From Methyloversatilis discipulorum (GTDB taxonomy: Bacteria > Pseudomonadota > Gammaproteobacteria > Burkholderiales > Rhodocyclaceae): 64,000 nucleotides of DNA. Below are positions 16,444 through 25,698 of this stretch, in pieces (positions within the stretch are counted from its first letter, which is position 1; each line of letters begins with the position of its first letter). A program made the translations under genes and the position numbers. The notes under the pieces are model-generated. The model was given only the letters and a program-made list of their open reading frames with translations, was not told where the DNA came from and ran no database searches. The stretch spans positions 62,001-126,000 of the forward strand of contig NZ_JADMJL010000011.1 of assembly GCF_018780585.1 (NCBI RefSeq), given 5' to 3'.

Positions 16444-16866
16444 CTGTAGGAGGGGTCTTCTGACCCCGACAGCGGCCAGTATCGAAGGCTGTGCAACCGG
16501 CATCGGCCCTGTCGCGGCCAAGGCCGCTCCCACGGAAGCTGCGCTCGACCCACGGCCGGAGCTTGGCTGGGGTTCTGTGGGAGGAGTCTTCTGACCCCGA
16601 CAGCGGCCGGGATCGAAGGCTGTGCGGCCGGCATCGGCCCTGTCGCGGCCAAGGCCGCTCCCACGGAAGCTGCGCTCGACCCACGGCCGGAGCTTGGCTG
16701 GGGTTCTGTGGGAGGAGTCTTCTGACCCCGACAGCGGCCGGGATCGAAGGCTGTGCGGCCGGCATCGGCCCTGTCGCGGCCAAGGCCGCTCCCACGGAAG
16801 CTGCGCTCGACCCACGGCCGGAGCTTGGCTGGGGTTCTGTGGGAGGGGTCTTCTGACCCCGACCGC
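16444..16866. repeat. 131-bp tandem array of paired REP-like palindromes
   Basis: Three nearly identical units with a period of exactly 131 bases start at 16444, 16575 and 16706, and a partial fourth starts at 16837. Each unit holds a GTCTTCTGACC-type palindrome, a ~25-base linker, an inverted GGCCAAGGCC-type palindrome ending CTCCCAC, and a ~45-base spacer. The first copy is the most diverged (GTAGGAGGGG and two spacer changes), while copies two and three look identical. The array fills the gap between the fdhA terminator and the riboswitch promoter. No protein is encoded: apparent open frames simply repeat with the array. Confidence 0.9.
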
Positions 16867-16888
16867 GGCGCTGGCGTCCTCGCCTGCC

Positions 16889-16916
16889 TTGACCCGCGCT
16901 CCGCATTTCGCATACC
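16889..16916 (+). promoter_or_regulatory. Candidate sigma-70 promoter for the cobalamin operon
   Basis: TTGACC (16889-16894) and CATACC (16911-16916) are separated by 16 bases and end about eight bases before the riboswitch begins. The -35 box is good and the -10 box is weak. Confidence 0.4.
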
Positions 16917-16923
16917 CTGCGCT

Positions 16924-17124
16924 CGCCTCAGGTGCCCCGCACAGCGTCCGCTGCAAGGGGTGAAACGGGAAGTCCGGTGCGCAGCCGCATTCGCGGTCTG
17001 CTATTCCGGCGCTGCCCCCGCAACGGTAAGCGAGTCGTAGCGATCCATTCAGCCACTGTGCCTTCGGCACGGGAAGGCGGATCGCACATATCCCCTCGTG
17101 AGCCCGGAGACCGGCCTGGCGCAA
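16924..17124 (+). promoter_or_regulatory. Cobalamin (B12) riboswitch
   Basis: The conserved blocks of the AdoCbl-type riboswitch appear in order: GGTGCC near the 5' end, GGGTGAAACGGGAAGTCCGG, GCTGCCCCCGCAACGGTAA, GGGAAGGCG and the B12 box AGCCCGGAGACCGGCC (17101-17116). It precedes a run of three same-strand genes ending in a TonB receptor, so high cobalamin should lower their expression. The ~180 bases from its end to the first start codon are GC-rich and could hold the expression platform; the ribosome site GGAGG lies at about 17291. Confidence 0.93.
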
Positions 17125-17301
17125 TGGGTCTTTCGACCCGACGACCGATGGCTGCGGTGGGCGGCCTGGGGCGCATGCGTTCGCTCGGCCGTGTTGCGGC
17201 CGTCCTATCCGTTCCTGTGCGTTTCTCGCGCGGCCTGCCGTGCGCCATCGGATTTTCTGCACTTCGCCGGCGGGTGATGCCGGCACTGCACGGAGGTCTG
17301 C

Positions 17302-18120
17302 ATGCGCACCACACTTTCCACCCTCATCGCCCTGTCCGGCTTCGCGCTGGCGGGTTCCGCACACGCCGGGCCGTTCGCGCCGGCGGCCGGCAGCGCCGGC
17401 TCCATCGCCATCCACAAGGACAGCGCTGCCTTCGTCCAGTGGGCCACCGGCTACTCGGACTACCAGCCCGGCCCGAACGTCGACGCCGCCTGGAAGAACC
17501 CGGCCGAAGGCCTGGGCAAGGCCGAAGGCACCTCGACTGACGTCGTCGTGCTGGGCGACGGCGGCCGCATCACGCTGACGTTCGACGGCTACATCACGAA
17601 TGGCGCCGGCGCCGATTTCGCGGTGTTCGAGAACAGCTTCAGCAATACCTTCCTCGAACTGGCCTTCGTCGAGGTGTCGTCCAACGGCACCGACTTCTTC
17701 CGCTTCCCGAACTACTCCTTCACACCCAGCCCCGTATCCGGCTTCGGCACCATCGACCCGACCAATATCGACGGCCTGGCCGGCAAGTACCGCGCCGGCT
17801 ACGGCACGCCGTTCGATCTCGACCTGCTGAGCGGCATCGCCGGCCTGGACGTGAACAAGGTGCAGTACGTGCGCCTGATCGACGTGGTCGGCAATGGCTC
17901 GACTTTCGACAGCTACCCGGCGGCCTACGGCGGCCCGCACCCGATCTACGACCCGTACCCGACCAGCGGCAGCAGCGGCTTCGACCTCGACGCGGTGGGC
18001 GTCATCCACTACGCCGCTTTCGACGCGCAGACACCGCCGGTGCCGGAGCCTTCGCAGTGGGCGATGTATGCCGCCGCGCTCGGCCTGCTGTCCGTCATCG
18101 TCCGTCGCAACCGCGCCTGA
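17302..18120 (+). CDS. PEP-CTERM surface protein, first gene of the B12-controlled operon
   Basis: A 272-residue exported protein. Residues 1-24 form a signal peptide (ending SAHAGPF). The C-terminus is a PEP-CTERM sorting signal: VPEPSQW, a hydrophobic helix, then RRNRA. The mature domain is Gly/Asp/Tyr-rich with GADFAVFENSFSNTFLELAFVE, GFGTIDPTNIDGLAGKY and a closing SGFDLDAVGVIH. This is a recurrent beta-rich extracellular domain of unknown function. Exosortase would cut and anchor it at the envelope surface; no exosortase is in this window. GGAGG precedes the ATG. The riboswitch directly upstream points to a role in cobalamin or corrinoid capture (inference). Confidence 0.85.
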   Translation: MRTTLSTLIALSGFALAGSAHAGPFAPAAGSAGSIAIHKDSAAFVQWATGYSDYQPGPNVDAAWKNPAEGLGKAEGTSTDVVVLGDGGRITLTFDGYITNGAGADFAVFENSFSNTFLELAFVEVSSNGTDFFRFPNYSFTPSPVSGFGTIDPTNIDGLAGKYRAGYGTPFDLDLLSGIAGLDVNKVQYVRLIDVVGNGSTFDSYPAAYGGPHPIYDPYPTSGSSGFDLDAVGVIHYAAFDAQTPPVPEPSQWAMYAAALGLLSVIVRRNRA

Positions 18121-18146
18121 ACGGCGCCGCACCAGGAACACCACAC

Positions 18147-18932
18147 ATGAATATCCGCACGCTTGCACTCTCGCTCTGCGCACTCGCCCTGAGCCAACCG
18201 GCCGCCGCGGTCAGCGTATCGACCTTCGACGACTTGACGCTGACCCCCGACAGCGTCTTCTTCCCGAAGACCAGCACCACCTTCACCAGTGGTGCCGCCA
18301 CCTTCAACCACAGCTTCAACGACTGGGGTGGCGACTGCTGCCACACCGACTGGGTCTATTCCAACCAGACCGACACCACCACCGAGGGCTATCTGAACCA
18401 GCACAGCGCCATCGCCGGCGGCGGCGCCGAAGGCTCGGCCAACTACGCGGTGGCCAATATCGGCGCGCCAGTGGCGAGCTTCGCCGCGCCGGTGAATGTG
18501 CTGGGCGCATGGTTCACCAACAGCACCTATGCCGCGCTGTCGATGCTCAACGGCGACGGCTTCGCCAAGCAGTTCGGCGGGGCGGCCGGCAGTGATGCCG
18601 ACTGGTTCATGCTCACCGTCACCGGCCTCGACAGCTTCGGCCAGAGCACCGGCAGCGTGGACTTCATGCTTGCCGACTACCGCTTTGCCGACAGCGCCGA
18701 CGACTACATCGTCACCGACTGGCGCTGGGTCGACCTGAGCGCGCTGGGCACGGTGAGCAGTCTGCAGTTCGCGCTCGCATCCAGCGACAACGGCGCCTTC
18801 GGCATGAACACGCCGGCCTATTTCGCGATGGATAACCTCGCGGTCGCCGCCGTGCCGGAACCCGAACAGGCGGCGCTGCTGCTTGCCGGCCTGGCGCTGG
18901 TCGGTGCCGTCGCCCGCCGCCGCATGGCCTGA
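18147..18932 (+). CDS. DUF4465-family PEP-CTERM protein, candidate corrinoid-binding
   Basis: A 261-residue exported protein: signal peptide (ending PAAAVSV), a DUF4465-like domain, and a C-terminal PEP-CTERM signal (VPEPEQ, hydrophobic helix, ARRRMA). Diagnostic stretches include GGDCCHTDWVYSNQTDTTT, SANYAVANIG, WFTNSTYAALSMLNGDGFAKQF, FMLADYR and GMNTPAYFAMDNL. DUF4465 is, as I recall, the domain of BtuH-type surface proteins that bind B12 in gut Bacteroidetes, where they are lipoproteins. Here the anchor would be PEP-CTERM. It sits 26 bases after the previous gene, under the same riboswitch and ahead of a BtuB-like receptor. B12 binding is inferred. Confidence 0.85.
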   Translation: MNIRTLALSLCALALSQPAAAVSVSTFDDLTLTPDSVFFPKTSTTFTSGAATFNHSFNDWGGDCCHTDWVYSNQTDTTTEGYLNQHSAIAGGGAEGSANYAVANIGAPVASFAAPVNVLGAWFTNSTYAALSMLNGDGFAKQFGGAAGSDADWFMLTVTGLDSFGQSTGSVDFMLADYRFADSADDYIVTDWRWVDLSALGTVSSLQFALASSDNGAFGMNTPAYFAMDNLAVAAVPEPEQAALLLAGLALVGAVARRRMA

Positions 18933-18951
18933 GTCATACCTTGAGTCATGC

Positions 18952-18978
18952 CCGGCTTCGCCCTGTGGGCGAAGCCGG
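18952..18978 (+). other. Perfect 12-bp intergenic hairpin inside the B12 operon
   Basis: CCGGCTTCGCCC-TGT-GGGCGAAGCCGG sits between the DUF4465 gene and the receptor start. No T-run follows directly, so it is more likely an mRNA-stability or processing element than a full terminator. Confidence 0.7.
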
Positions 18979-18994
18979 TGCTGAGGCCATTTTC

Positions 18995-21043
18995 ATGAAC
19001 ATCTTCTTCCGGCAAGCGCTGGCGGCCCTCGCGTGTCTACCCGCCATGCAGGCTCACGCCGACGAGCCCTTCCGGCTCGACGAAATCGTCATCAGCGCGC
19101 CGTCGGCCGATGACACGCTGCGCGCGGTGCCGCACGGCGTGTCGGTCATCACCGCGGACGACATCGAGCGTGCCGGTGCGCAGGGCATGGGCGAACTGCT
19201 CAGCCGTGAAGCCGGCCTCAACCTGCAGAGCTATTTCGGCCGCGACAAGGGCGCCACCGTCGACATGCGCGGCCTGGGCGCGACCGCGGTGAGCAATGTG
19301 CTGGTGCTGGTCGACGGCGTGCGCCTTAATGCCGACGATCTGTCGGGCGCGGACCTGTCTTCGGTTTCGCTGTCGCAGGTCGAGCGCATCGAAGTGCTGC
19401 GCGGCGCCGGGGCGGTGCGCCATGGCGACGGTGCGGTCGGCGGCATCGTGCACATCCAGACCCGGCGCCCGCGGCCCGGGCCGCTCACCGGTCAGCTCGA
19501 TCTGCGCGCTGGCGCCTGGGGCACCCGCGAAGCGCGGCTGCGCGCAGCCGGCGGCACTGGGCCGCTGGCAGCCAGTGTCACATTGAGCCGGCAGGACAGC
19601 GACGGCTACCGTGACAACGATCGCTACGCCGCGCGCGACAGCGCGGTCGAGCTAAGTCTGCTGCCTGAGGGCGCGTGGTCCTTCATCGACCTCAGCCTGC
19701 GCGCGGCGCGCCACATCGACGAGTACGGCCTGCCGGGGCCAGTCAGCGCCGAAGCCTTCCGCGGTAGCAGTGCGCGAAGACGGGGCAGCAGCGCCTCACC
19801 GCTCGATGGCGGCAGCACCGACGACCGCACGCTGGGCGCCCGGCTGCGTGCCGATTTCGGCGACGCCGGGCTGTTCACCGTGCAGTTCGACCACCGCGAC
19901 CGCGAGAACCCTTACTTCATCGGTGCGCAAGGCGGCACCTCGCTGGCCGACCAGCGCAACGTGATCGACGCCACCCGGCGCGATCTGCGCCTGACGCACG
20001 AACTGGGCATCGACGCCTTCGGTCAGCGGCACGACCTGGCATTCGGCTACGTCAGCCAGTCGTCCGACTACCTGCGGCGCGAGAACGGCGACTTCGTGGT
20101 CGGAAACTCGACCCGGCGCAGCGGTGAACTGAATGGCCACGCGGGCTGGGCCGAAGGTGTGTTCAGGCTGGGGCAGGGCGTCAGCGTCAACGCCGGCCTG
20201 CGCCACGACCGCGCCGAGAGTCGCACCGCGGGCAGCCGCTACACGCGCGAGTGCCAGTACATCTTCATTCCGTTTCCGGTCGAAGTGCCCGGCAGCTGCG
20301 TGAACGCATTCCGCGCCACCGACGCCACCGCATCGGACTGGCGCAACCGGGCGAGCGAACTGGGGGCGAGCTGGCAGCTGTCGCCGGCACTGACCGTGTT
20401 CGCCGCGGACAGCCGTCACTTCCGCAACCCGAACGTCGATGAACTCGCACTCGCGGCGGCCGACCTGCGCCCGCAGAGCGGCCGCACGCGCGAAGCGGGT
20501 TTGCGCGTGCGTGGGAAAACGGTCGAGTTCGGCGCCACGGTCTATCGCATGCGAATCGAGGACGAAATCTACTTTGACAGCGCCAGCGGCCTGAGCGTGA
20601 ATCGCAACTACGAACTGCCCACGGTGCGCACCGGCGTCGAGATCGATCTGCGCTGGCGCATCCGGCCCGGTGTGCTGTTTGCCACCAACGCCGGCTACGT
20701 GCAGCCGCGCTTCGAAGGCAGCGACGCCGACGTGCCGCTGGTGCCGCGCCGCACCGCCAACGCCCGCGTCGAATGGACGCCGGCCGATGCGCAGCGCTTC
20801 ACCCTGAGCGCCCGCCACGCCGGCCGCCGCTTCGACGGCAACGACCTCGACAACCGCAGCTTCGCTCCGCTGCCGTCCTACACCGTGTTCGACCTCGCAT
20901 TCAGCACCCGCGCCGGCGCCGCGACCTGGTCGGCCGGCATCAACAACCTGTTCGACAAGGTGTATTCGACGCTTGCCTACAGCAATACCTACTACCCCAT
21001 GCCCGAGCGAGCGGCCTGGGTGGCGGTGAGCTGGAAGATGTAG
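18995..21043 (+). CDS. btuB: TonB-dependent receptor, BtuB-like (cobalamin/corrinoid uptake)
   Basis: A 682-residue outer-membrane receptor. ATG 18995 begins a signal peptide ending AMQAHADEP. A TonB box (DEIVISA) follows, then a plug with VPHGVSVITADDIER, VDMRGLGA, VLVLVDGVRLN and RIEVLRGAGAVRHGDGAVGG. The 22-strand barrel ends in Met after WVAVSWKM. The order matches BtuB, with a vitamin-like compact plug. It is third in the riboswitch-controlled operon, so cobalamin or related corrinoids are the likely cargo. The inner-membrane BtuCDF transporter is not in this window. The symbol is assigned by context plus family; another corrinoid or cobalt-linked ligand is possible. Confidence 0.85.
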   Translation: MNIFFRQALAALACLPAMQAHADEPFRLDEIVISAPSADDTLRAVPHGVSVITADDIERAGAQGMGELLSREAGLNLQSYFGRDKGATVDMRGLGATAVSNVLVLVDGVRLNADDLSGADLSSVSLSQVERIEVLRGAGAVRHGDGAVGGIVHIQTRRPRPGPLTGQLDLRAGAWGTREARLRAAGGTGPLAASVTLSRQDSDGYRDNDRYAARDSAVELSLLPEGAWSFIDLSLRAARHIDEYGLPGPVSAEAFRGSSARRRGSSASPLDGGSTDDRTLGARLRADFGDAGLFTVQFDHRDRENPYFIGAQGGTSLADQRNVIDATRRDLRLTHELGIDAFGQRHDLAFGYVSQSSDYLRRENGDFVVGNSTRRSGELNGHAGWAEGVFRLGQGVSVNAGLRHDRAESRTAGSRYTRECQYIFIPFPVEVPGSCVNAFRATDATASDWRNRASELGASWQLSPALTVFAADSRHFRNPNVDELALAAADLRPQSGRTREAGLRVRGKTVEFGATVYRMRIEDEIYFDSASGLSVNRNYELPTVRTGVEIDLRWRIRPGVLFATNAGYVQPRFEGSDADVPLVPRRTANARVEWTPADAQRFTLSARHAGRRFDGNDLDNRSFAPLPSYTVFDLAFSTRAGAATWSAGINNLFDKVYSTLAYSNTYYPMPERAAWVAVSWKM

Positions 21044-23773: not shown

Positions 23774-24730
23774 TCAATCGTGATGAAGCGCGGACAGCCA
23801 GACCTGCAGACGGGTGTCGGCTATGCCCTGGGTGATGCACACCACGGTCGAGCCGCGCGCGGCGTCGGGCCAGGCGGGCAGGAGTGTCGGCGGGTAGAGC
23901 GCATGCTGTACGCCCTGCACGACCAGCGGGCGCGACTCGCCGGCGACGTCGAACAGTGCCTTCATGCGCAACAGGCCGGGGCCGGCGATGTCTGGCCAGG
24001 CGGCGAGCCAGGCGTCGATCTGCGCGCGCTGCAGCGGTTGCTCGATCAGGGTGCTGTCTGCCCGCACGGCATGCGGCGCGGCGATGGTCGGCGGTGCGGC
24101 GCGGTAGCGCATGACGGCTGGCGGGTCGAACAGTGCCGGCCCGAGGCTCGCGGTCTGCAGGTCGAGCTGAGGCGCGAACGGGTTCAGCGCGGCCAGCGTC
24201 TGCCGCAGCGTGACGACCGCGGCGGCGTCGGCGAGATCGGTCTTGCTAATCAGCAGGCGGTCGGCGGCGGCGACCTGGCGCACCGCTTCCGGGCGCATGG
24301 CCAGCGTCGCCGCCGCGTGCGTGGCATCGACCACGGTGAGCGTGCAGCTCAGCCGGTAGCGTTCGACCACGCGCGCATCGGCGGCCAGCGTGCGCAACAC
24401 CGGTGCCGGATCGGCCAGGCCGGTGGTTTCGATCACGATGCGTTCGAACTGGCGGCGGCCGGCGCGTGCGAAGCGCCAGTGCGCGTCGCGCAAGGTCTGC
24501 GCGAGGTCGCCACGCAGCGTGCAGCAGACGCAGCCGCTGGCCAGTTCGACCACGGTCTGGTCGGCGGTGTGCGTGACCAGCCGGTGATCGAGCGAGGCCT
24601 CGCCGAACTCGTTCACGATGACCAGCGTGTCGGCCATGTCGGCACGCGCAAGCAGGCGGTTCAACAGCGTGGTCTTGCCGGCGCCGAGAAAGCCGGTCAG
24701 CAGCACCACCGGCAGGCGTTGCGCGCTCAT
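23774..24730 (-). CDS. COG0523 (CobW/ZNG1-like) GTP-binding metallochaperone
   Basis: A 318-residue GTPase: Walker A GFLGAGKTTLL, the metal-binding CXCC motif in SGCVCCTLRGDL, switch region ETTGLADPAP, and ISKTDL as the guanine specificity motif. The C-terminal domain (GLLRMKALFDVAG...VVQGVQHAL) is typical of the CobW_C fold. Members deliver Zn or serve cobalt/B12 or other metalloenzyme systems. ATG 24730 overlaps the LysR stop as ATGA, so the regulator and GTPase are translated together. The lack of a His-rich loop argues against a bulk metal store. Client is unknown. Confidence 0.88.
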   Translation of the reverse strand: MSAQRLPVVLLTGFLGAGKTTLLNRLLARADMADTLVIVNEFGEASLDHRLVTHTADQTVVELASGCVCCTLRGDLAQTLRDAHWRFARAGRRQFERIVIETTGLADPAPVLRTLAADARVVERYRLSCTLTVVDATHAAATLAMRPEAVRQVAAADRLLISKTDLADAAAVVTLRQTLAALNPFAPQLDLQTASLGPALFDPPAVMRYRAAPPTIAAPHAVRADSTLIEQPLQRAQIDAWLAAWPDIAGPGLLRMKALFDVAGESRPLVVQGVQHALYPPTLLPAWPDAARGSTVVCITQGIADTRLQVWLSALHHD

Positions 24731-25698
24731 GCCGGCACGCCTTCGAGCAGAGCCCGGCGGGTGCGCGGGCTGGCCAGTTGCTGCAGCCACCAGTCGAGTG
24801 CGCGGCCGCGCTGGCCGGCGCTGCGCCAGGCGATGGCGAAGCGGGCGACCTTGTCCTCGCCAGTCGCTTTCGCCACCAGTCGTCCCGCTTCGATGTGGGC
24901 GCGCACGCGCGCCTCGGGCAGGAAACCGCAGCCGAGGCCGCGCAGCTGCGCGTCGATCTTCATGTCCAGCGTCGGCACCGTGAGGACGTCCTGTCCGGGC
25001 AGCAGATTGCGCGACACCGGCGACAGTTTCATTGCGCTGTCGGCGATGGCGACCGCGCGGTGCATGCGGATCATCGCCGGGTCCAGCGGTTCGGCGACGC
25101 GCGCCAGCGGGTGATGCGGCGCCACGACGAATACGAAGGGGATGTCACCGAGCGCCTCGACCTGCACGCCGCTGACCCGCGTGTCGTCGGCGTCGACGCC
25201 GATGGCGAGGTCGGCCGCGCCCGACAGCAAGGCTTCCCAGGTGCCGGACAGCACCTCCTGGCGCAGGCGTATGCGCGTCGGCGGCGGCAGGCGCGCGGTG
25301 TCGCGCTGGGCGTAGAAGGCGTCGACCAGATCGAGCAGCGTGTGCGGGCACATCAGCGCGTTGGCGGCGATGGCCAGCTGACCCTCCCAGCCGCTGGCGA
25401 CGCGCTTGACGCGGCTCGCGACGGCGTCCATCTCCAGCAGCAGGCGTCGGCCTTCGACCAGCAGTTCGCGGCCGGCCGGCGTCAGCACGGCGGTGCGGCT
25501 GGCGCGGTCGAACAGCAGCACGTCGAGCGCATCTTCGAGCTGGCGCACGCTGTAGCTGAGAGCCGACGGCACCTTGCCGAGCACGCGCGCGGCGGCGGCG
25601 AAGCTGCCGGCTTCGTCGATGGTGGCGATCAGACGGATCGCTTCGGGCGTCAGCGGATGGTCGCGTTCGGACACGGTGGTGGAGATGTAGTCGTTCAA
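24727..25698 (-). CDS. LysR-family transcriptional regulator
   Basis: About 323 residues: an N-terminal winged helix-turn-helix (GSFAAAARVLGKVPSALSYSVRQLE, so a serine-tyrosine recognition helix) and a periplasmic-binding-like effector domain. No ATG is available; the longest frame starts at TTG 25698 with a possible GTG start at 25674, and an in-frame stop lies just upstream. It diverges from the pirin/flavodoxin pair, the usual target arrangement for LysR proteins, and is coupled to the COG0523 gene downstream. A palindrome overlaps its start. LysR members near pirin and quinone-reductase-like genes often respond to electrophiles or quinones (inference). Confidence 0.9.
   Translation of the reverse strand: MNDYISTTVSERDHPLTPEAIRLIATIDEAGSFAAAARVLGKVPSALSYSVRQLEDALDVLLFDRASRTAVLTPAGRELLVEGRRLLLEMDAVASRVKRVASGWEGQLAIAANALMCPHTLLDLVDAFYAQRDTARLPPPTRIRLRQEVLSGTWEALLSGAADLAIGVDADDTRVSGVQVEALGDIPFVFVVAPHHPLARVAEPLDPAMIRMHRAVAIADSAMKLSPVSRNLLPGQDVLTVPTLDMKIDAQLRGLGCGFLPEARVRAHIEAGRLVAKATGEDKVARFAIAWRSAGQRGRALDWWLQQLASPRTRRALLEGVPA

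Follow-up and report, generated by a model that had tools for sequence, protein, structure and literature searches.

A candidate cobamide-capture operon in Methyloversatilis discipulorum pairs a BtuJ-family protein with a distant relative of BtuH

We analyzed 64,000 nucleotides of the Methyloversatilis discipulorum genome (contig NZ_JADMJL010000011.1, positions 62,001 to 126,000), hereafter the window, and focused on three genes that follow a cobalamin riboswitch. Gene 1 encodes a secreted protein of an unnamed family that we call G1, gene 2 encodes a DUF4465 protein, and gene 3 encodes a TonB-dependent receptor (Table 1). Given their homology and genomic context, the three genes very probably form an accessory operon for the capture of cobamides. 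We also lean, with some reservation, toward a broader interpretation in which G1 is a so far unannotated branch of the BtuH superfamily, extends across phyla, and makes up, together with BtuJ, an old and portable cobamide-capture cassette, sometimes encoded as one protein, with its B12 control kept and its anchor exchanged by lineage. As part of this same interpretation, the anchors would be lipid or type IX secretion system (T9SS) signals in Bacteroidota, the CFI-box in Desulfobacteraceae and their kin, and PEP-CTERM/exosortase signals in Beta- and Gammaproteobacteria and several Verrucomicrobiota. Already known are the riboswitch, B12 binding by DUF4465 proteins in many phyla, and the gut Bacteroidetes proteins BtuH, BtuG, and BtuJ; what is new is a BtuH-like family, unannotated and spread across phyla, that accompanies BtuJ.

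The riboswitch aptamer is full length (RF00174, model positions 1-189 of 189) and scored 106.8 bits in cmscan, compared to an Rfam gathering score of 31.5 bits. It was the sole RNA family match at gathering thresholds in the window. All three genes lie on its strand, and the gene next downstream of gene 3 lies on the opposite strand. An earlier note on this DNA had described a riboswitch (starting at 16924 rather than 16913) directly before three same-strand genes, the second of them DUF4465, and our searches confirmed both observations; its reading of the locus as a riboswitch-controlled surface B12-capture unit, with sorted partners and a receptor, is well supported by homology and context. 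Among 60 kin genomes, a full-length gene 1 relative was found in 12, namely 11 of the 12 same-genus genomes and one genome of another family, and the riboswitch was present in all 12 of these kin loci (L004-L015). Other gene 1 matches in the kin genomes were short tail matches or weak partial ones and were not counted. Immediately 5' of the window's riboswitch, in the expected promoter region, lies a tandem repeat array (16444-16869) in which a 131-bp unit occurs in 3.3 head-to-tail copies with 97% matches.

Gene 2 is a full-length member of DUF4465 (PF14717, 184.6 bits versus a cut-off of 25). Experimental work ties this family to B12: the Bacteroides thetaiotaomicron (B. theta) DUF4465 proteins BtuJ1 and BtuJ2 bind cobalamin tightly (PMC12751083), and eight divergent DUF4465 proteins were reported in 2026 to bind B12 (PMC13398666). 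The same 2026 source describes a conserved core consisting of the HI-loop motif NTPAY, which binds B12, and a tyrosine in the DE-loop helix, and it already includes Pseudomonadota among the DUF4465 clades. Counted along the alignment of gene 2 with B12-bound BtuJ1 (9fct), all six checked contact positions, as named in PMC12751083 and PMC13398666, are identical (BtuJ1/gene 2: Trp78/Trp60, Tyr97/Tyr82, Tyr146/Tyr128, Asn241/Asn221, Thr242/Thr222, and Tyr245/Tyr225). Gene 2 resembles the known BtuJ proteins (BtuJ1 BT_1491, BtuJ2 BT_1957, and D5EK51) in being a full-length family member and in the checked B12 contacts, and it likewise lies beside a TonB receptor in a riboswitch locus. Unlike them, it ends in an exosortase-type PEP-CTERM tail where they have a lipid anchor. 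Its host is betaproteobacterial, and within that phylum few genomes carry the family (2 of 398 sampled, the window's own included). We assign gene 2 to BtuJ, not BtuH. The label "DUF4465-type (BtuH)" in the earlier note merges two families, because BtuH and DUF4465 are different families (PMC8941943) and DUF4465 is the BtuJ family (PMC12751083, PMC13398666); the BtuH-like protein of the locus is gene 1, to which the note had assigned no family.

Published work describes BtuH from gut Bacteroidetes (PMC8941943). Because PDB searches alone gave weak results, we built a BtuH domain alignment for profile comparison, using 29 BtuH domains from one gut Bacteroidetes family, a sample member of which matches 7biz at E 9.8e-48. 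The G1 and BtuH profiles aligned in hhalign with 96.6% probability over 52 columns, compared to 0.9% for a reversed BtuH alignment and 0.6% for DUF4465. Given the latter value and the identity of DUF4465 as BtuJ, DUF4465 was rejected as a candidate BtuH. We then ran the G1 profile on 560 reading frames from 15 gut loci, which were picked because they hold BtuH and were absent from the building of the G1 profile. The 16 BtuH frames were the top 16 matches (E 3.5e-8 to 0.044), the next-best frame had an E value of 0.91, and no frame other than BtuH matched below E 0.1, a result that bears on whether G1 could be BtuK or BtuL. Within the aligned region, Asn111 of gene 1 falls on Asn399 of BtuH2 and is Asn in all 79 aligned G1 members, and Phe113 aligns with Phe401 and is Phe in 61 of the 79 (BtuH2 numbering was checked on the 7biz chain). 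In BtuH2, Asn399 contacts the B12 phosphate and Phe401 touches the lower ligand (PMC8941943). These comparisons indicate that gene 1 is distantly related to BtuH. Like BtuH (BtuH2 BT_1956, 7BIZ, and the H-domain of BtuG1, 8BLW), it shares part of the B12-domain core and lies in the same type of locus; unlike BtuH, it has about 210 rather than 270 residues, only remote similarity, a PEP-CTERM-like tail, no PKD or propeller domain, and relatives far beyond Bacteroidota.

In Pfam and NCBIfam scans, no family other than PEP-CTERM was reported above cut-off or just below it for gene 1, and PADLOC matched neither gene 1 nor gene 2. When 84,980 species genomes were scanned, G1 relatives turned up across many phyla, with at least 475 encoding stretches. 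Our G1 set consists of the best 80 of these stretches (loci L035-L114), which were chosen as the closest relatives, not at random. Across 79 aligned G1 domains, 16 columns are invariant, and the members are 49 to 86% identical to the window's G1. Across the 79 members, Pfam returned only three single-member matches (E 0.015 to 0.066), with no family covering the domain, and NCBIfam returned two weak single-member matches and, at scores far short of the cut-off, the LIC_13355 lipoprotein model. With nothing beyond sub-threshold or single-member matches in Pfam and NCBIfam and none in PADLOC, we rejected the idea that G1 is a named family. Because 71 of the 79 members match the LIC_13355 model at this sub-threshold level, the LIC_13355 family could represent a further remote branch of the G1 fold. 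In the best G1 tree, Bacteroidota form a single clade (98/94) next to Verrucomicrobiota and Planctomycetota rows; the nearest named relative of the window's G1 is Methyloversatilis (the tree tool assigns rows titled only Deltaproteobacteria to Myxococcota). Pseudomonadota require four changes on this tree; we do not claim horizontal transfer of G1, because well-supported branches force only one of the four. Should gene 1 bind B12, then a family with at least 475 environmental-genome stretches would acquire a function, and the gut B12-scavenging machinery would be a single variant of a far broader capture system.

We searched the G1 set for the other parts of the locus. A riboswitch was counted only if it was overlapped in the locus by a match to a nucleotide profile of 45 riboswitches (E 1 or better); mapping by contig coordinates alone was rejected because several short-contig matches were coincidences, and the genome of L053 was left out of the riboswitch search. 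The riboswitch was sequence-confirmed in 59 of the 80 loci, upstream and on the same strand in 58. DUF4465 was present in 49 loci and a window-type TonB receptor in 50; 65 loci hold at least one of these two. The complete four-part combination of riboswitch, G1, DUF4465, and receptor occurred in 29 loci. By record title, these comprise 10 loci from Betaproteobacteria, 4 from Gammaproteobacteria, 5 from Desulfobacteraceae or "Deltaproteobacteria," 9 from Bacteroidota, and a single verrucomicrobial locus. The betaproteobacterial G1 loci, which partly overlap the kin loci (L042 is identical to L015), hold all four parts in 10 of 10 cases. Because 66 of 79 G1-set genomes carry just one or two B12 riboswitches genome-wide, chance proximity cannot explain the association. 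In Planctomycetota loci, G1, DUF4465, and the riboswitch are seen together. Several planctomycete reading frames of about 2,000 residues join G1 and DUF4465 domains behind a B12 riboswitch (L070 6794-12628, L072 6259-12309, L082 6893-12955, and L087 1366-7428), and the L070 frame has three DUF4465 matches.

A second survey started from DUF4465. Besides the two genomes in the window's phylum, DUF4465 was found in 37 of 149 genomes in the class of a Bacteroidales bin, 2 of 99 in the phylum of Rhodopirellula, and 11 of 96 in the phylum of Verrucomicrobium. From the 50 matching genomes of these last three groups we obtained 40 loci, all from genomes outside the G1 set, after leaving out six already reached via G1 (G468, G481, G485, G488, G516, and G518), three near a contig edge (G612, G632, and G645), and one below the cut-off (G550). 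A B12 riboswitch was present in 38 of the 40 loci (RF00174 in 37 and RF01482 in one); it was missing from L182 and from L194, which lies at a contig edge. A window-type receptor was present in 28 loci, G1 in 23, and BtuH in 2 others. The earlier note had raised the possibility that PEP-CTERM proteins of this family lie mostly outside B12-riboswitch loci. We found the opposite: DUF4465 proteins with a PEP-CTERM-like tail, a class assigned by a simple motif and to which most of the 40 proteins do not belong, had a riboswitch in 5 of 6 cases here and in 19 of 25 cases in the G1 set. The RF01482 riboswitch, of the adenosylcobalamin class, is at L187 7578-7714 and precedes a DUF4465-receptor-G1 locus.

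The recurring parts differ in their sorting signals. Genes 1 and 2 of the window both end like exosortase substrates, with VPEP, a hydrophobic stretch, and an Arg-rich tail. We assigned tail types by simple motif classes to 40 non-fused G1/DUF4465 pairs, window included: both proteins were PEP-CTERM-like in 19 pairs, T9SS-like in 8, and CFI-like in 5, and the other 8 pairs differed or were unclassified, 6 of them combining a PEP-like DUF4465 with an unclassified G1. Usually, then, the G1 and DUF4465 proteins of one locus share a type of C-terminal sorting signal. The CFI-like end was seen on both proteins of L060, L062, L064, L067, and L068 (Desulfobacteraceae and "Deltaproteobacteria"). Because L049 and L051, also titled Deltaproteobacteria, have PEP-like tails, CFI is not the rule across that whole group. 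When curated sorting models were run on ten proteins, the T9SS tail model TIGR04183 was above its cut-off on both L091 proteins, a PEP-CTERM model on the L052 DUF4465 protein, and the CFI-box model NF041763 (an NCBIfam putative sorting motif) on the L068 DUF4465 protein, one of two CFI-like proteins tested. VPLPA-CTERM on the L044 DUF4465 protein and T9SS on the L146 G1 protein fell just below cut-off, and no sorting model exceeded its cut-off on the G1 proteins of L044, L052, L067, and L073.

The sorting tails vary by lineage, and the window's exosortase-type tail is therefore one of several solutions for the same cargo. Convergence of the capture domains, as the earlier note had proposed, was rejected, since the same two families recur together across phyla; the capture domains are homologous, with only the sorting signal differing. 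If gene 1 binds B12, exosortase substrates would also gain a concrete nutrient role, and there would be a clean way to ask how the same capture domains function with different anchors. In open-licence PubMed Central, we found no link of PEP-CTERM to B12 uptake and no paper combining PEP-CTERM with DUF4465, PEP-CTERM with BtuB, or BtuH with Verrucomicrobia; the passages of one paper that name PEP-CTERM, cobalamin, and riboswitch treat them as separate genes.

In the mechanism that we infer, low cellular adenosylcobalamin would cause the riboswitch to permit production of the three genes. The gene 1 protein (the BtuH relative) and the gene 2 protein (BtuJ) would be secreted, processed by exosortase at their PEP-CTERM tails, and end at the cell surface or in the polysaccharide layer, where they would bind cobamides outside the cell and hand them over to the BtuB-like receptor, which would import them with TonB. 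This arrangement resembles the BtuB-BtuG complex of gut Bacteroides in combining riboswitch-controlled surface capture with a TonB receptor. The parallel to BtuG itself, which had been drawn earlier, does not hold: no BtuG beta-propeller (PF16819) was found in the window's genome. An Escherichia coli-type btuB gene likewise has a B12 riboswitch ahead of a TonB receptor, and the same genome has such a unit elsewhere; unlike that arrangement, the window has two surface-protein genes first and a divergent receptor.

Several results weigh against this interpretation, and those that concern the BtuH homology and the receptor are given with the alternatives on which they bear. A scan for a consensus promoter and terminator found neither above the level of shuffled sequences, and the leader folded no better than shuffles (z -0.44). 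The riboswitch was unconfirmed in 21 of the 80 G1 loci, and the gene sits no more than 2.3 kb from a contig edge in 11 of these and farther away in the other 10. No window-type receptor was seen in the Planctomycetota G1 loci, and 15 of the 40 DUF4465 loci have neither G1 nor BtuH. Of the two proteins described as PEP-CTERM, gene 2 exceeds both cut-offs (Pfam PEP-CTERM, 25.1 versus 20.7 bits; TIGR02595, 18.8 versus 16 bits), and gene 1 lies just below them, its C terminus (VPEP...RRNRA) scoring 20.6 bits in Pfam and 11.2 bits on TIGR02595.

The alternative that survives best accepts B12 binding and moves its location: the two PEP-CTERM proteins would be shed into or bound within exopolysaccharide, acting as a matrix sponge for B12 and not as partners of an outer-membrane receptor. 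PEP-CTERM/exosortase sorting has been tied to exopolysaccharide (PMC1569441), BtuJ on B. theta vesicles works at a distance (PMC12751083), and the window's genome encodes two exosortases (252.9 and 230.5 bits). The same-strand receptor in all 10 betaproteobacterial loci nonetheless suggests close cooperation, although it is compatible with a matrix location as well. We regard this alternative as possible, if doubtful.

It is also conceivable, although we consider it unlikely, that B12 is handled only by gene 2 and the receptor, and that gene 1 is a structural or docking partner with an old BtuH core that binds no corrinoid. The confident G1-BtuH alignment covers only 52 of about 210 G1 columns, and the BtuH2 corrin contacts Tyr510, Trp511, His476, and Trp577 lie outside the aligned columns and have no confident G1 counterpart. 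Searches of the PDB are on their own weak support for the homology. Gene 1 alone matched an unrelated chain (SYG1) at E 0.009, an 11-sequence G1 profile had no match, and the 79-sequence profile reached 8blw chain B (428-473) at E 0.0087, ahead of a ribosomal protein at 0.72, and did not reach 7biz at E 10. The 8blw chain is BtuG1, the C-terminal part of which is a BtuH domain (PMC10404256), and a BtuGH fusion in L151 matches both 8blw and 7biz. In addition, B. theta BtuK2, which is encoded in such an operon and looks like a binder, does not bind (PMC12751083), and the sub-threshold LIC_13355 matches hint that the core also occurs outside B12 proteins. Against a non-binding gene 1 stand the invariant asparagine at the B12-contacting Asn399 position and the joining of G1 and DUF4465 in a single reading frame in 10 of 80 G1 loci and 4 of 40 DUF4465 loci. 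Moreover, in the locus sets to which both profiles were applied, no locus contained both G1 and BtuH, as though one substituted for the other.

A third alternative concerns the ligand of gene 3, which might be a metal chelate or another corrinoid such as cobinamide, with the operon only indirectly linked to B12. Gene 3 has TonB receptor domains above cut-off (barrel, 126.6 bits; plug, 82.4 bits), and we took its start as the ATG at 18998 (681 aa) and not the TTG at 18941 chosen by the open reading frame tool. The sequence DEIVISA near its mature N terminus resembles a TonB box. The label "BtuB-like" in the earlier note is fair in that, among solved structures, E. coli BtuB is the nearest in sequence (E 7.2e-18, plug region), but gene 3 scored 144.4 bits on the BtuB equivalog model TIGR01779, below the cut-off of 599.7. 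It scored slightly higher, at 156.5 bits, on a siderophore-receptor model, also below that model's cut-off. Moreover, the genome has a separate riboswitch-controlled BtuB with a better TIGR01779 score (405.1 bits, likewise below cut-off). Riboswitch control, a DUF4465 partner that retains its B12 contacts, and BtuB as the nearest solved structure make a ligand other than B12 improbable. That the neighborhood arose by chance, with a riboswitch controlling something else and surface proteins unrelated to B12, is scarcely credible given B12 riboswitches at 38 of 40 and 59 of 80 loci and the one or two riboswitches in 66 of 79 G1 genomes.

Under the cobamide-capture interpretation, the operon would be accessory to a second import unit. 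In the window's genome (4.56 Mb, judged 99.98% complete), the separate BtuB lies on another contig (L232 330-6919) behind a second cobalamin riboswitch and is followed by a BtuC-like permease, CobA, CobB, and BluB, a set that reads as a corrinoid import and remodelling unit. A search for CbiC, the only corrin-ring pathway marker checked, gave no match in this genome and was positive in 7 of 14 control genomes. Because this second riboswitch-BtuB salvage unit is present and CbiC was not found, the host looks like a corrinoid scavenger with canonical and accessory import units. CobB and BluB are also compatible with a de novo pathway, which counts against the scavenger assignment.

Table 1. Features of the riboswitch-controlled locus, in window coordinates
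Feature	Position	Strand	Evidence
Cobalamin riboswitch aptamer RF00174, full length	16913..17133	+	cmscan 106.8 bits, E 9.3e-26
GGAGG, likely ribosome-binding site of gene 1	17292..17296	+	Sequence reading
Gene 1 (G1), secreted PEP-CTERM-like protein, 272 aa, unnamed cross-phylum family distantly related to the BtuH B12-binding domain	17302..18120	+	
Codon of Asn111 of gene 1 (N89 of the mature domain), aligned with Asn399 of BtuH2	17632..17634	+	
PEP-CTERM-like tail of gene 1 (VPEPSQWAMYAAALGLLSVIVRRNRA)	18040..18117	+	Pfam 20.6 bits versus cut-off 20.7, residues 246-269
Gene 2, DUF4465 (BtuJ-family) PEP-CTERM protein, 261 aa	18147..18932	+	PF14717 184.6 bits; PDB relatives 9hmu, 9fct, 9i2l
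Codon of Trp60 of gene 2, equivalent to Trp78 of BtuJ1 (lower-ligand contact)	18324..18326	+	Alignment to 9fct
Codon of Tyr128 of gene 2, equivalent to Tyr146 of BtuJ1 (DE-loop helix, corrin side chain)	18528..18530	+	Alignment to 9fct
NTPAY (gene 2 residues 221-225), HI-loop motif, aligned with BtuJ1 Asn241, Thr242, and Tyr245	18807..18821	+	
PEP-CTERM sorting signal of gene 2 (VPEPEQAALLLAGLALVGAVARRRMA)	18852..18929	+	Pfam 25.1 bits, TIGR02595 18.8 bits
Gene 3, TonB-dependent outer-membrane receptor, BtuB-like	18998..21043	+	Pfam plug and barrel

Elsewhere in the window, the minus strand holds a GTPase-like reading frame with a Cys-Val-Cys-Cys motif (23774-24790), which appears, by eye, to resemble the CobW/COG0523 metallochaperones.

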